DNA from: Thauera carbonicopians
GTDB lineage: Bacteria; Pseudomonadota; Gammaproteobacteria; Burkholderiales; Rhodocyclaceae
NCBI RefSeq assembly: GCF_025699485.1
Contig: NZ_JANUXN010000008.1
Location: 62,001-126,000, forward strand
Direction: 5' to 3'
Length of the DNA: 64,000 nt
The position numbers and the translations under genes are program-made. The stretch's first letter is position 1. Each line of letters begins with the position of its first letter. The notes below the pieces were generated by a model, which worked only from the letters and a program-made list of their open reading frames with translations, did no database searches and was not told the origin of the DNA. This document shows, one piece after another, positions 4,110-22,636 of the stretch.

Positions 4110-4120
4110 GGCGCTATACT

Positions 4121-4203
4121 GGCGGGCGGAGATGGCATTCCTCCCTTAACCGCCGCAGCGCGCGGCTGATGATGCCTACGACTGGCCGGACGGGCCGCGT
4201 AGG
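4121..4203 (+). ncRNA. Fluoride riboswitch (crcB motif) with expression platform
   Basis: The aptamer shows the conserved blocks in order: GGCGGAGATGGCATTCCTCC, then TTAACCGCC, then GCTGATGATGCCTAC. These form the known pseudoknotted fluoride-binding core. Just downstream, CCTACG (4175-4180, the aptamer 3' end) can pair with CGTAGG (4198-4203) around a GGCC/GGCC inner stem, giving an alternative helix. No T run follows it, so control may be at translation or by a Rho-type mechanism. crcB follows at 4252. Confidence 0.92.
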
Positions 4204-19587: not shown

Positions 19588-19702
19588 GTGATGCTCCGTG
19601 CTATGGCCGGGAGGGAAGGGGCATGGCGTGCGGCTCACCCGGCATCCCGAACCCGGCAGGGTTGAGGGAAGAAACGCCTTCGGACGACACACGAAGGTGT
19701 TT
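19588..19702 (-). other. ahcY leader downstream of the aptamer
   Basis: This 115-nt segment links the SAH aptamer to the ribosome site. It can form several GC-rich hairpins, including CGAACCCGGCAGGGTT-type pairing. A clear terminator T run is absent, so the switching mechanism is not evident. Confidence 0.4.
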
Positions 19703-19802
19703 CGGGCGAGCGCCGTTCAAACCGCCGCGGCAGCGAGCCGCGGCTTTCCGAGCCTGGGGGCCTGGGCTGGACGGCCCGGCGCCTCGCAGCGCTCCTCGGA
19801 AC
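19703..19802 (-). ncRNA. SAH riboswitch upstream of ahcY
   Basis: On the minus strand the conserved blocks appear in order: CCGAGGAGCGCTGCGA, then CCAGGCTCGG (pairing with the first CCGAG to close P1), and AACGGCGCTC, whose GCGCT can pair with the AGCGC of block one as the pseudoknot. This is the known S-adenosylhomocysteine aptamer, which switches the gene on when SAH accumulates. It starts a few bases after the predicted transcription start. Confidence 0.9.
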
Positions 19803-19811
19803 AAGGGCGGC

Positions 19812-21254: not shown

Positions 21255-22418
21255 TTACAACCCGGCGTCGGCCCTCAGCGCGGCGGCCTTGTCGGTCTGC
21301 TCCCAGCCGAATTCCGGCTCGTCGCGGCCGAAGTGGCCGTAGGCGGCGGTGCGGGAGTAGATCGGGCGCAGCAGGTCGAGGGTCTGGATGATCGCTTTCG
21401 GCCGCAGGTCGAAGTGCCTGCCGACCAGTTCGACGATCTTCTCGTCGGCGATCCTGCCGGTGCCGAAGGTGTTGACCATCAGCGACACCGGGCGGGCGAC
21501 GCCGATGGCGTAGGCGACCTGCACTTCGCAGCGCTCGGCCAGGCCGGCGGCGACGATGTTCTTCGCCACGTAGCGGCCGGCATAGGCGCCCGAGCGGTCG
21601 ACCTTGGAGGGATCCTTGCCCGAGAACGCGCCGCCGCCGTGGCGGGCCGCGCCGCCGTAGGTGTCGACGATGATCTTGCGTCCGGTCAGGCCGCAGTCGC
21701 CGTGCGGGCCGCCGACGACGAAGCGGCCGGTGGGGTTGACCAGGTAGCGTACGTTGCCCTGGAGCAACTCCTTGGGCAGCACCGGCTTGATGATGAGCTC
21801 GACCACCGCCTCGTGGATCTGCGACTGGCTGACGTCGGGGTCGTGCTGGGTCGACACCACCACGGTGTCGATCGCTGCCGGCTTGCCGTCGACGTACTTC
21901 ACCGTGATCTGGCTCTTGGCGTCCGGCCGCAGCCAGGGCAGGCGGCCGTCCTTGCGCACCTCGGCTTGGCGCTGCATGACACGGTGCGCGTAGTAGATCG
22001 GCAGCGGCATCAGGCTGGGGGTTTCGGTGGTGGCGTAGCCGAACATGATGCCCTGGTCGCCGGCGCCCTGGTCGAGCGGGTCGTCGTTGGCATTATCCAC
22101 GCCCTGGGCAATGTCGAGCGACTGGCGGTTGATCGCCGCCAGCACCGCGCAGCTCTTGTAGTCGAAGCCGATGTCGGAGTTGTCGTAGCCGATGCGGCGG
22201 ATGACGTCCTGCGCGATCTCGCGGTAGTTGGGGTGGGCGGCAGTGGTGATTTCGCCCGAGATCACGACCAGGCCGGTCGACACCAGGGTTTCGCAGGCGA
22301 CGCGCGCCTTGGGATCTTCGGCCAGGATGGCGTCGAGCACGCCGTCGGACACCTGGTCAGCGACCTTGTCCGGATGGCCTTCGGAAACGGACTCGGAAGT
22401 AAACAGAAATTCAGCCAT
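21255..22418 (-). CDS. metK: S-adenosylmethionine synthetase
   Basis: This 387-residue enzyme makes SAM from methionine and ATP. Signatures: [20 protein letters not shown] at the N-terminus, [12 protein letters not shown], the P-loop-like [20 protein letters not shown], and [15 protein letters not shown] at the C-terminus. Length is typical. GGAG lies 10 nt before the ATG. Its leader of about 180 nt contains a SAM-II-like aptamer and a terminator hairpin, consistent with feedback control. Confidence 0.99.
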
Positions 22419-22436
22419 GTCGTACTGCTCCAGAAA

Positions 22437-22492
22437 CAAAAAAATCCCCGATCAGCCAATGACTTGCGTCTGCGGCCAGCTCCGGGGATTTT
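22437..22492 (-). terminator. Terminator hairpin in the metK leader
   Basis: On the minus strand AAAATCCCCG pairs with CGGGGATTTT, followed by TTT, around a 32-nt loop that itself holds GGCC/GGCT pairing. It lies immediately upstream of the metK ribosome site, the place for an attenuator. Confidence 0.75.
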
Positions 22493-22602
22493 GTCGGGCA
22501 GCCGACGCTTTAGCAGTATTTCCGCAAGGTCGACCTGTTTCGGGCCTCTTTGCCCGGTCGCTGCGCCCGCCCTGCAAGTTGTCGATTTAACTCGGCGGTG
22601 AG
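22493..22602 (-). ncRNA. SAM-II-like riboswitch with an accessory arm (metK leader)
   Basis: On the minus strand P1 is CCGCC (22598-22594) with GGCGG (22571-22567). Its loop contains GAGTTAAATCGACAACTTGC and AG, like the SAM-II consensus (GAUUUAA, CCG, UUGCA). A 3' strand CTGCTAAAGCGTCG (22516-22503) carries the hallmark GCUAAA, with CTGC complementary to loop GCAG and GTCG to loop CGAC, giving the SAM-II pseudoknot. Between them an extra arm is formed by CGCA/TGCG, CGACC/GGTCG and GGGC/GCCC. GTCGG can instead pair with CCGAC (22506-22493), which would break the pseudoknot. Confidence 0.72.
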
Positions 22603-22607
22603 CCGCG

Positions 22608-22636
22608 ATTATAGACCGGGATCGCCGGGTATGTAA
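22608..22636 (-). promoter_or_regulatory. Sigma-70 promoter of metK
   Basis: TATAAT (22613-22608) and TTACAT 17 bp upstream are well placed. The predicted start near 22602 falls directly at the 5' end of the aptamer. Confidence 0.75.

Follow-up and report, generated by a model that had tools for sequence, protein, structure and literature searches.

The metK leader of Thauera carbonicopians

The window analysed here is a stretch of 64,000 nucleotides of Thauera carbonicopians DNA. On its minus strand lies metK, encoding S-adenosylmethionine (SAM) synthetase, with a long structured leader ahead of it. The features are given below in window coordinates, in 5′ to 3′ order.

22608..22636, minus strand: sigma-70-like promoter TTACAT-17-TATAAT, found by eye and by promoter scan
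22600-22416, minus strand: metK leader, with P1, the SAM-II-like core of the pseudoknot, the arm of variable length, the alternative hairpin and the strong terminator hairpin
22594..22598, minus strand: P1 5′ strand CCGCC, pairing with 22567-22571; P1 covaries in relatives
22587..22593, minus strand: third strand GAGTTAA, counterpart of SAM-II GAUUUAA; in it G22591 is the U10 equivalent, and T22590 and T22589 are the U11 and U12 equivalents
22581..22584, minus strand: 5′ strand CGAC of the outer pseudoknot helix (P2a), pairing with 22503-22506; modest covariation
22572..22577, minus strand: 5′ strand TTGCAG of the inner pseudoknot helix; A22573-T22515 covaries (A-U versus G-C)
22567..22571, minus strand: P1 3′ strand GGCGG, partner of 22594-22598
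22524..22566, minus strand: accessory arm, variable; three stacked helices predicted in the T. carbonicopians copy
22509..22516, minus strand: CTGCTAAA, 3′ strand of the inner pseudoknot helix with the U44, A45, A46 and A47 equivalents (predicted ligand pocket)
22503..22506, minus strand: 3′ strand GTCG of P2a; covariation
22493..22506, minus strand: alternative hairpin GTCGG/CCGAC, competitor of P2a; −5.4 kcal/mol
22496..22501, minus strand: CTGCCC, weak anti-Shine-Dalgarno candidate with one mismatch (C-A), from the sequence and its relatives
22438..22492, minus strand: intrinsic terminator AAAATCCCCG...CGGGGATTTT plus T run; −24.7 kcal/mol, z −3.78
22425..22431, minus strand: Shine-Dalgarno region GGAGCAG, from the sequence
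21255..22418, minus strand: metK, S-adenosylmethionine synthetase, 388 codons including the stop, from the list of open reading frames (ORFs)

The promoter scan gave the same promoter as CTTACA-18-TATAAT, and from its position (22636-22608) the RNA is expected to start at or just before P1, near 22602-22599. P1 (CCGCC/GGCGG) encloses the loop GAGTTAAATCGACAACTTGCAG, and the 43-nt arm and AAATACTGCTAAAGCGTCGG come after it. Downstream are the alternative hairpin, the terminator hairpin with its T run, GGAGCAG and the ATG. In the P1 loop, CTTGCAG occupies 22578-22572, and its GCAG (22575-22572) pairs with CTGC (22516-22513), which runs into the GCTAAA element (22514-22509), all on the minus strand. 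The counterpart of CTGCCC is CTGCTC in many relatives of the family.

A preliminary description of this leader had named P1, its loop, the GCTAAA element, both pseudoknot pairings, an alternative GTCGG/CCGAC helix and a T-rich terminator, and we found all of them on the minus strand. The alternative hairpin (z −2.58; 3 of 200 shuffles equally good) and the terminator hairpin (0 of 200 shuffles) stood out from shuffled sequences. A consensus terminator scan, which covers loops of 3-8 only, reported no terminator at the metK leader. The arm had been described as three stacked helices of about 35 nt. Its best fold indeed has three stacked helices, but it is 43 nt long (22566-22524), and the fold (−14.6 kcal/mol, z −1.39; 18 of 200 shuffles equally good) is not clearly above shuffles.

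Conservation and distribution

To estimate how widely the leader occurs, its DNA was compared with the genomes of the family, and matches were found in 134 of 150 genomes, representing 63 of 68 genera (E 0.01). At all 30 loci taken from this search, including our own, metK was present (tblastn with MetK). A covariance model built from these 30 loci with P1 as its only base pairs (R1) matched 174 of 349 genomes of the order and 39 of 398 genomes of the phylum, with filters that lose weak matches. A second model (R2) was built from 100 hand-picked loci, that is, 98 of the 181 metK-linked RNAs described below plus two loci with identical RNAs. It matched 99 of 350 genomes of the class (E 0.001); since R2 also detects metX- and metZ-type leaders, this number is not a count of metK elements.

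In addition, a DNA pattern scan of named genomes returned at least 119 stretches, some of them not ahead of metK. Among the matches listed were Thauera, Cupriavidus, Achromobacter, Bordetella, Chromobacterium, Vogesella, Sutterella, Limnobacter and Hydrogenophilus, and the core pattern had no match in viral contigs. A pattern anchored on TTGC and GCTAAA found 266 distinct RNAs in the fetched loci, 181 of which were followed by metK (172 with GAGTTA, 7 with GATTTA and 2 with GATTTG). The two GATTTG copies are canonical and come from another order; they were left out, leaving 179 metK-type copies.

The same string of elements thus recurs before metK across the family and beyond, far above chance, and the earlier proposal of a SAM-II-like pseudoknot ahead of metK in a betaproteobacterium is borne out. 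The metK leader belongs to a real and widely conserved SAM-II-like riboswitch subclass, with SAM as its predicted ligand and OFF as the predicted direction of its response.

Covariation of the pseudoknot

For the analysis of covariation, 100 loci (98 distinct rows) were aligned with P1 alone as the fitted structure. P1 and the two pseudoknot helices were paired in 94.5% of cells, compared with 87.5% after shuffling; both sides changed in 10 of 14 pairs, compared with 3.3 in shuffled alignments, a value reached by none of 500 shuffles, which take no account of relatedness. The covariation score was 0.260 (shuffled 0.127), and it fell to 0.017-0.088 in controls slid by 1-3 columns. For further pair types, the observed value was reached by 6 of 500 shuffles.

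In a second count, each copy was anchored on TTGC and GCTAAA, letters that lie outside the tested pairs. Among the 179 metK-type copies, the inner pair was A-U in 82, G-C in 82, G-U in 12 and G-G in 3; it was thus Watson-Crick in 164, whereas shuffling gave a mean of 87.9 and a maximum of 112. The next inner pair was G-C in 175, A-U in 3 and A-C in 1. These counts show that the inner helix covaries strongly. In the outer helix, the first pair was C-G in all 179 copies, and the pair −5/+4 was A-U in 173, G-U in 5 and A-C in 1, so that its 173 Watson-Crick pairs are no excess over the shuffled 173.0. The pair −6/+5 was G-C in 167, A-U in 7, G-U in 1 and unpaired in 4, with 174 Watson-Crick copies against 160.8 in shuffles (maximum 165). 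It was formed in just 3 of the 7 metK-linked GATTTA copies, and the fourth outer pair was formed in only 86 of the 179 copies. Most of the outer helix therefore does not vary, and its covariation, seen at −6/+5, is weaker than that of the inner helix. Among 30 related non-metK copies, both outer pairs were above every shuffle (27 versus a maximum of 26, and 29 versus a maximum of 25). For P1, the anchored pattern had demanded four pairs, so the test was limited to pairs 5 and 6, which were paired in 180 and 144 of 181 copies.

Furthermore, changes were placed on a tree of MetK (175 copies). The inner pair showed 6 joint changes from GC to AT and 5 from AT to GC. With separate reconstructions of the two sides, both sides of the inner pair changed on one branch 6 times among 348 branches, the pair −6/+5 did so 3 times (one towards the canonical copies) and the pair −5/+4 once; the slid controls gave 0, 1 and 2. 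Both pseudoknot helices are therefore supported by covariation, strongly for the inner and modestly for the outer one, and the lack of covariation that would have refuted the preliminary description is not observed.

Ligand pocket and marks of the subclass

The pocket was surveyed in 103 model hits (98 distinct) from 100 of the 112 loci L094-L205. The U11, U12 and GCUAAA equivalents were present in all 98 distinct copies and UUGC in 97, the remaining row being gapped there; pocket letters shared by the training copies favour themselves in such a model search, and position 10, position 9 and the pair letters still vary in the set. Position 10 was G in 74 copies, U in 22, A in 1 and a gap in 1. 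The bases which we take to be the equivalents of the SAM-contacting U11, U21, U44 and A47 in SAM-II numbering, by our own alignment of the numbering, were kept in 97 or 98 of the 98 copies.

The crystal structure of SAM-V is reported to have a pocket nearly identical to that of SAM-II, in which U47, itself hydrogen bonded to U8, pairs with the SAM adenine, while U9 and U20 flank the sulfonium and A50 holds the amino acid end (PMC6061858). Taken together with this structure, the kept bases indicate that the direct contacts are retained and that in most copies only the buttress is altered. In the T. carbonicopians copy and in 172 of the 179 metK-type copies, position 10 is G, compared with U in SAM-II. 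On the MetK tree, it changed from G to U 3 times, with one set of these changes in the canonical copies. In addition, an extra pair in the pseudoknot core (Watson-Crick or G-U) was found in 176 of the 179 copies. Among non-metK copies, this inner pair was present in 14 of 55 of the GATTTG type and in 29 of 30 others.

The suggestion that the leader represents a distinct subclass stands in part. The RNA is unrecognised by Rfam (see below), and G at the U10 equivalent and the extra Watson-Crick pair hold up as marks of the subclass. The arm and the terminator, proposed earlier as such marks, do not. The arm ranges from 6 to 59 nt among the 181 metK-linked copies and is no longer than 15 nt in 59 of them. 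A crude terminator scan (a stem of at least 5 pairs before a T run, which includes some weak stems) found terminator-like hairpins in just 72 of the 181, namely in 29 of 38 copies of the family, 12 of 56 other copies and 31 of 87 pattern-scan rows among the matches listed. Terminators are also common in known SAM-II RNAs, which have been reported with them in alpha- and betaproteobacteria (Barrick and Breaker 2007, PMC2258182). According to the same paper, the SAM-II loop ends in a Watson-Crick pair.

Relationship to known riboswitches

The SAM-II model RF00521 did not match the window, the leader or the own genome, and the leader was unmatched even at E 10; the control genomes were also silent. 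The whole Rfam library, run on the window and on stretches of 361 and 131 bases, gave only chance-level hits to unrelated families in the leader. No match to the leader was found for SAM-II long loops (RF01726) or, with the whole library, for SAM-V at E up to 10, nor for the SAM/SAH riboswitch (RF01727) in the window or the leader. RF01726 had no match in the own genome either, at a threshold (E 10) that is uninformative because it matched 10 of 14 genomes in the control. Among 15 metK-linked loci (19 loci searched), RF00521 matched only L128, weakly (22.8 bits, cut-off 36). The failure of Rfam does not come from the arm alone, since L119, with an arm of 6 nt, fails too. Our custom models, as noted above, do match the homologues.

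RF00521 was run on 12 further loci, and ten scored. Of the seven metX/metZ leaders of the same order that scored, only L086 passed the cut-off of 36 (36.2 bits); L090, L089, L088, L087, L048 and the metX leader of the own genome (L045) reached 26.2 to 32.1 bits. The metX/metZ leaders L041 and L049 were unmatched. Of three loci with tandem aptamers (see below), L103 and L154 had RF00521 matches at the leading aptamer, which is of the GATTTG type (44.8 and 29.2 bits), and L109 had none. Conversely, R2, run on 29 loci, detected the metX leader of the own genome with 36.3 bits (E 1.1e-8), which marks it as homologous to the metK element, and L089, a metZ leader, with 35.2 bits. Of 16 phylum-level RF00521 loci, presumably alphaproteobacterial, 7 were matched at the RF00521 position, with 10.0 to 17.3 bits and E of 0.002 to 0.25. 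A chain thus leads from the metK type through the metX/metZ type to classical SAM-II, and by score its last link is weak.

The metK type shares with SAM-II the P1 stem, the third strand, the UUGC/GCUAA core, the register of the outer helix (−4/+3 onward), a location before methionine genes and frequent terminators. Unlike SAM-II, its leader is unmatched by RF00521, it has mostly G10 and an extra core pair, its outer helix is a short GAC/GUC, a variable arm follows P1, and metK is its main target. With SAM-V and the tandem SAM-II/SAM-V RNAs it has in common a closely similar pocket and, in tandems, the place of the second aptamer behind SAM-II, although lineage and genes are other ones. SAM-II long loops is a SAM-II variant with loops enlarged, going by its name, and is listed for Bacteroidetes and marine samples (PMC2864571). 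The SAM/SAH riboswitch is likewise a short pseudoknot RNA before metK, known from Rhodobacterales (PMC2864571).

In betaproteobacteria, a pseudoknot element before metX and metZ, with an alternative fold and a terminator, was presented as a novel RNA element (metXZ) by Leyn et al. (2014, PMC4239095), and the metK leader resembles it in these respects. However, the metXZ element is characterised by six conserved blocks and a place upstream of metX or metZ, the T. carbonicopians copy precedes metK, and the metX/metZ leaders examined here carry GATTTG. From gene and anatomy we infer that the betaproteobacterial metX/metZ leaders are the metXZ element. A table footnote in Korniakova et al. (2022, PMC8814607) gives the 5′UTRs of metK, metX and metZ of Burkholderia thailandensis as suspected to be regulatory, "which we confirmed (unpublished data)". 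That the metK leader is regulatory had thus been noticed before; full-text searches of open-licence papers found no description of the RNA itself.

Two further observations concern SAM-II-type RNAs. In another family of the class, an RF00521-like SAM-II RNA (L092, 34.1 bits; L093, 39.2 bits) with a terminator-like hairpin lies before metK. In addition, the strand opposite the SAM-II-type aptamers L088, L091, L103 and L154 gave sub-cut-off matches to RF02424 (Burkholderia sRNA Bp2_287); this family may therefore be an antisense reading of a SAM-II-type riboswitch.

Downstream genes and tandem arrays

Behind 71 of the 103 model hits there was metK. Another 22 hits (19 loci) were located before an ORF of 85 to 114 residues beginning with M[YF]DC, which is followed by a MATE transporter. 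Of the other 10, 4 lay ahead of a MoxR-like ORF, 3 ahead of a 106-residue ORF from a class-level family and 2 ahead of an HD-domain ORF, and 1 was unassigned. The Pfam assignments of MatE and HD_4 come from one protein each, MoxR was below the cut-off, and the small ORFs had no family.

We also found 16 distinct tandem arrays, in which a SAM-II-type aptamer is followed by a metK-type aptamer (L103, L109, L120, L149, L154, L164, L169, L173, L179, L198, L218, L237, L241, L258, L265 and L288). Where the downstream genes were examined, 8 of 10 arrays precede the M[YF]DC ORF (about 100 residues) and the MATE transporter. These tandems mirror the marine SAM-II/SAM-V pairs, in which the first aptamer is reported to end transcription and the second to control translation (PMC9481103).

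Related RNAs were seen before other genes as well. In L139, L141, L143 and L336, which all come from a single class-level family (genome sizes 3.7 to 6.7 Mb), a SAM-II-like RNA of the GATTTA type precedes an ORF of about 106 residues without a known family; the outer helix of L139 is AGC/GCU. In L110, L111, L112, L116, L329 and L330 (families f81 and f238), a SAM-II-like RNA lies near an ORF with a weak, sub-cut-off Pfam match to MoxR-like ATPases. L339 has a GAGTTTC variant ahead of an ORF that, from its sequence, reads like methylenetetrahydrofolate reductase (MetF).

Expression platform and proposed mechanism

Immediately 3′ of the pseudoknot lies a strand with complementarity to the region around the Shine-Dalgarno sequence. 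The mean complementarity score was 9.01 within the own leader and 7.36 (maximum 7.55) after partner swaps, which, like the shuffles, take no account of relatedness; some of the best matches touch the start codon instead of the Shine-Dalgarno sequence. The excess was seen both in the 72 copies with a terminator-like hairpin (8.94 versus at most 8.04) and in the 109 copies without one (9.06 versus at most 7.59). In addition, a GCUC/GAGC hairpin that encloses the terminator's CCCC had a mean pair probability above 0.5 in the nascent chain in 35 of 54 terminator-bearing copies, and is a possible antiterminator by these folding predictions. Its mean energy was −9.5 kcal/mol, compared with −2.7 kcal/mol for the small alternative hairpin, and it was the stronger of the two in 44 of the 54 copies.

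Based on these results, we consider it probable that the metK leader acts as a SAM-responsive OFF switch, a riboswitch that falls within the SAM-II/SAM-V superfamily and forms a betaproteobacterial subclass outside Rfam. In our model, P1 would close the loop, and pairing between the loop and the GCUAAAG(C)GUC strand further downstream would give an H-type pseudoknot, with the GA[G/U]UUAA strand lying in its groove and holding SAM in the manner of SAM-II. At high SAM, GUCG would be sequestered in the pseudoknot, leaving the strand that follows (GCUGCUC in many copies) available to mask the Shine-Dalgarno sequence. The strong terminator could also form in Rhodocyclaceae, and expression of metK would fall. 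At low SAM, the 3′ part would refold and metK would be made. SAM as the ligand, the OFF direction and the choice among the competing hairpins are thus parts of the model that we deduce. The masking complementarity and the distribution of terminators favour a translational OFF switch, with a terminator in addition in Rhodocyclaceae. Several observations weigh against the model: the leader is unmatched by the Rfam SAM-II models, position 10 is altered in most copies, the outer helix hardly varies, the anti-Shine-Dalgarno strand of the T. carbonicopians copy has a mismatch, and the nascent chain often prefers the possible antiterminator, so that the route by which SAM would trigger termination is tentative.

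The same fold could also serve another ligand, if G10 and the extra pair had retuned the pocket to SAH, methylthioadenosine or another relative of SAM. The metK type would then be a distinct class within the SAM-II/SAM-V group, and the tandems with a canonical SAM-II-type aptamer would be two-input switches, reading SAM and a second, SAM-related metabolite before the M[YF]DC protein and the MATE transporter. The altered base speaks for this, since the U8 of SAM-V bonds to the very U47 that pairs with the SAM adenine (PMC6061858) and its equivalent is G in 172 of 179 copies here, as does the place of the metK type behind a SAM-II-type aptamer in the 16 arrays. However, the sulfonium-facing uridines and the bases contacting the adenine and the aminoacyl part are retained, G and U interchange at position 10 before the same gene on the MetK tree, and tandem SAM-II/SAM-V pairs sharing one ligand are known (PMC9481103). 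We therefore regard a change of ligand, and with it the two-metabolite reading of the tandems, as unlikely.

A SAM-responsive OFF switch is also preferred to two readings that we consider very improbable. One is a terminator-controlled RNA element whose signal would be a protein or the translation of a leader peptide instead of a metabolite. The strong terminator and the alternative hairpins would suit it, and Leyn et al. (2014, PMC4239095) call the metXZ element merely an RNA element, but the core is a SAM-II-like pocket and many copies have no terminator-like hairpin. Attenuation by a leader peptide can be rejected by reasoning, since no reading frame through the leader would survive an arm that varies from 6 to 59 nt. 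The other is an ON switch. The small hairpin (−5.4 kcal/mol in T. carbonicopians) uses the GUCG that is also part of the outer pseudoknot helix, and the GCUGCUC strand lies in its loop. Without SAM, the hairpin would hide this strand; the SAM-bound pseudoknot would free it to form an antiterminator with GAGC, and more metK would be made. This would amount to positive feedback on SAM synthesis, whereas SAM-II and SAM-V are reported to lower the expression of the genes they control (PMC9373788, PMC6061858). Moreover, the GCUC/GAGC hairpin outweighs the small hairpin and should form without SAM, and the GCUGCUC strand is also complementary to the Shine-Dalgarno region.

SAM synthetase is a central gene, and the survey of Leyn et al. 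(2014, PMC4239095) found no regulator of metK in betaproteobacteria; the element would fill this gap across many families. It extends SAM-II-like RNAs well past the alphaproteobacteria and indicates that current Rfam models overlook one branch of them. Furthermore, the copies make up a natural series, in which position 10 is U or G and the arm, the terminator and the masking are each present or absent; with it, one could test how the same pocket is coupled to different outputs.

Other riboswitches in the window

Two other riboswitch families matched the window. The SAH riboswitch (RF01057, 43 bits) lies at 19701-19803 on the minus strand, upstream of an ORF that resembles S-adenosylhomocysteine hydrolase by its sequence, so that metK and a nearby SAH-recycling gene would each have an RNA switch of their own. 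The fluoride riboswitch (RF01734, 51.5 bits) lies at 4119-4185 on the plus strand.
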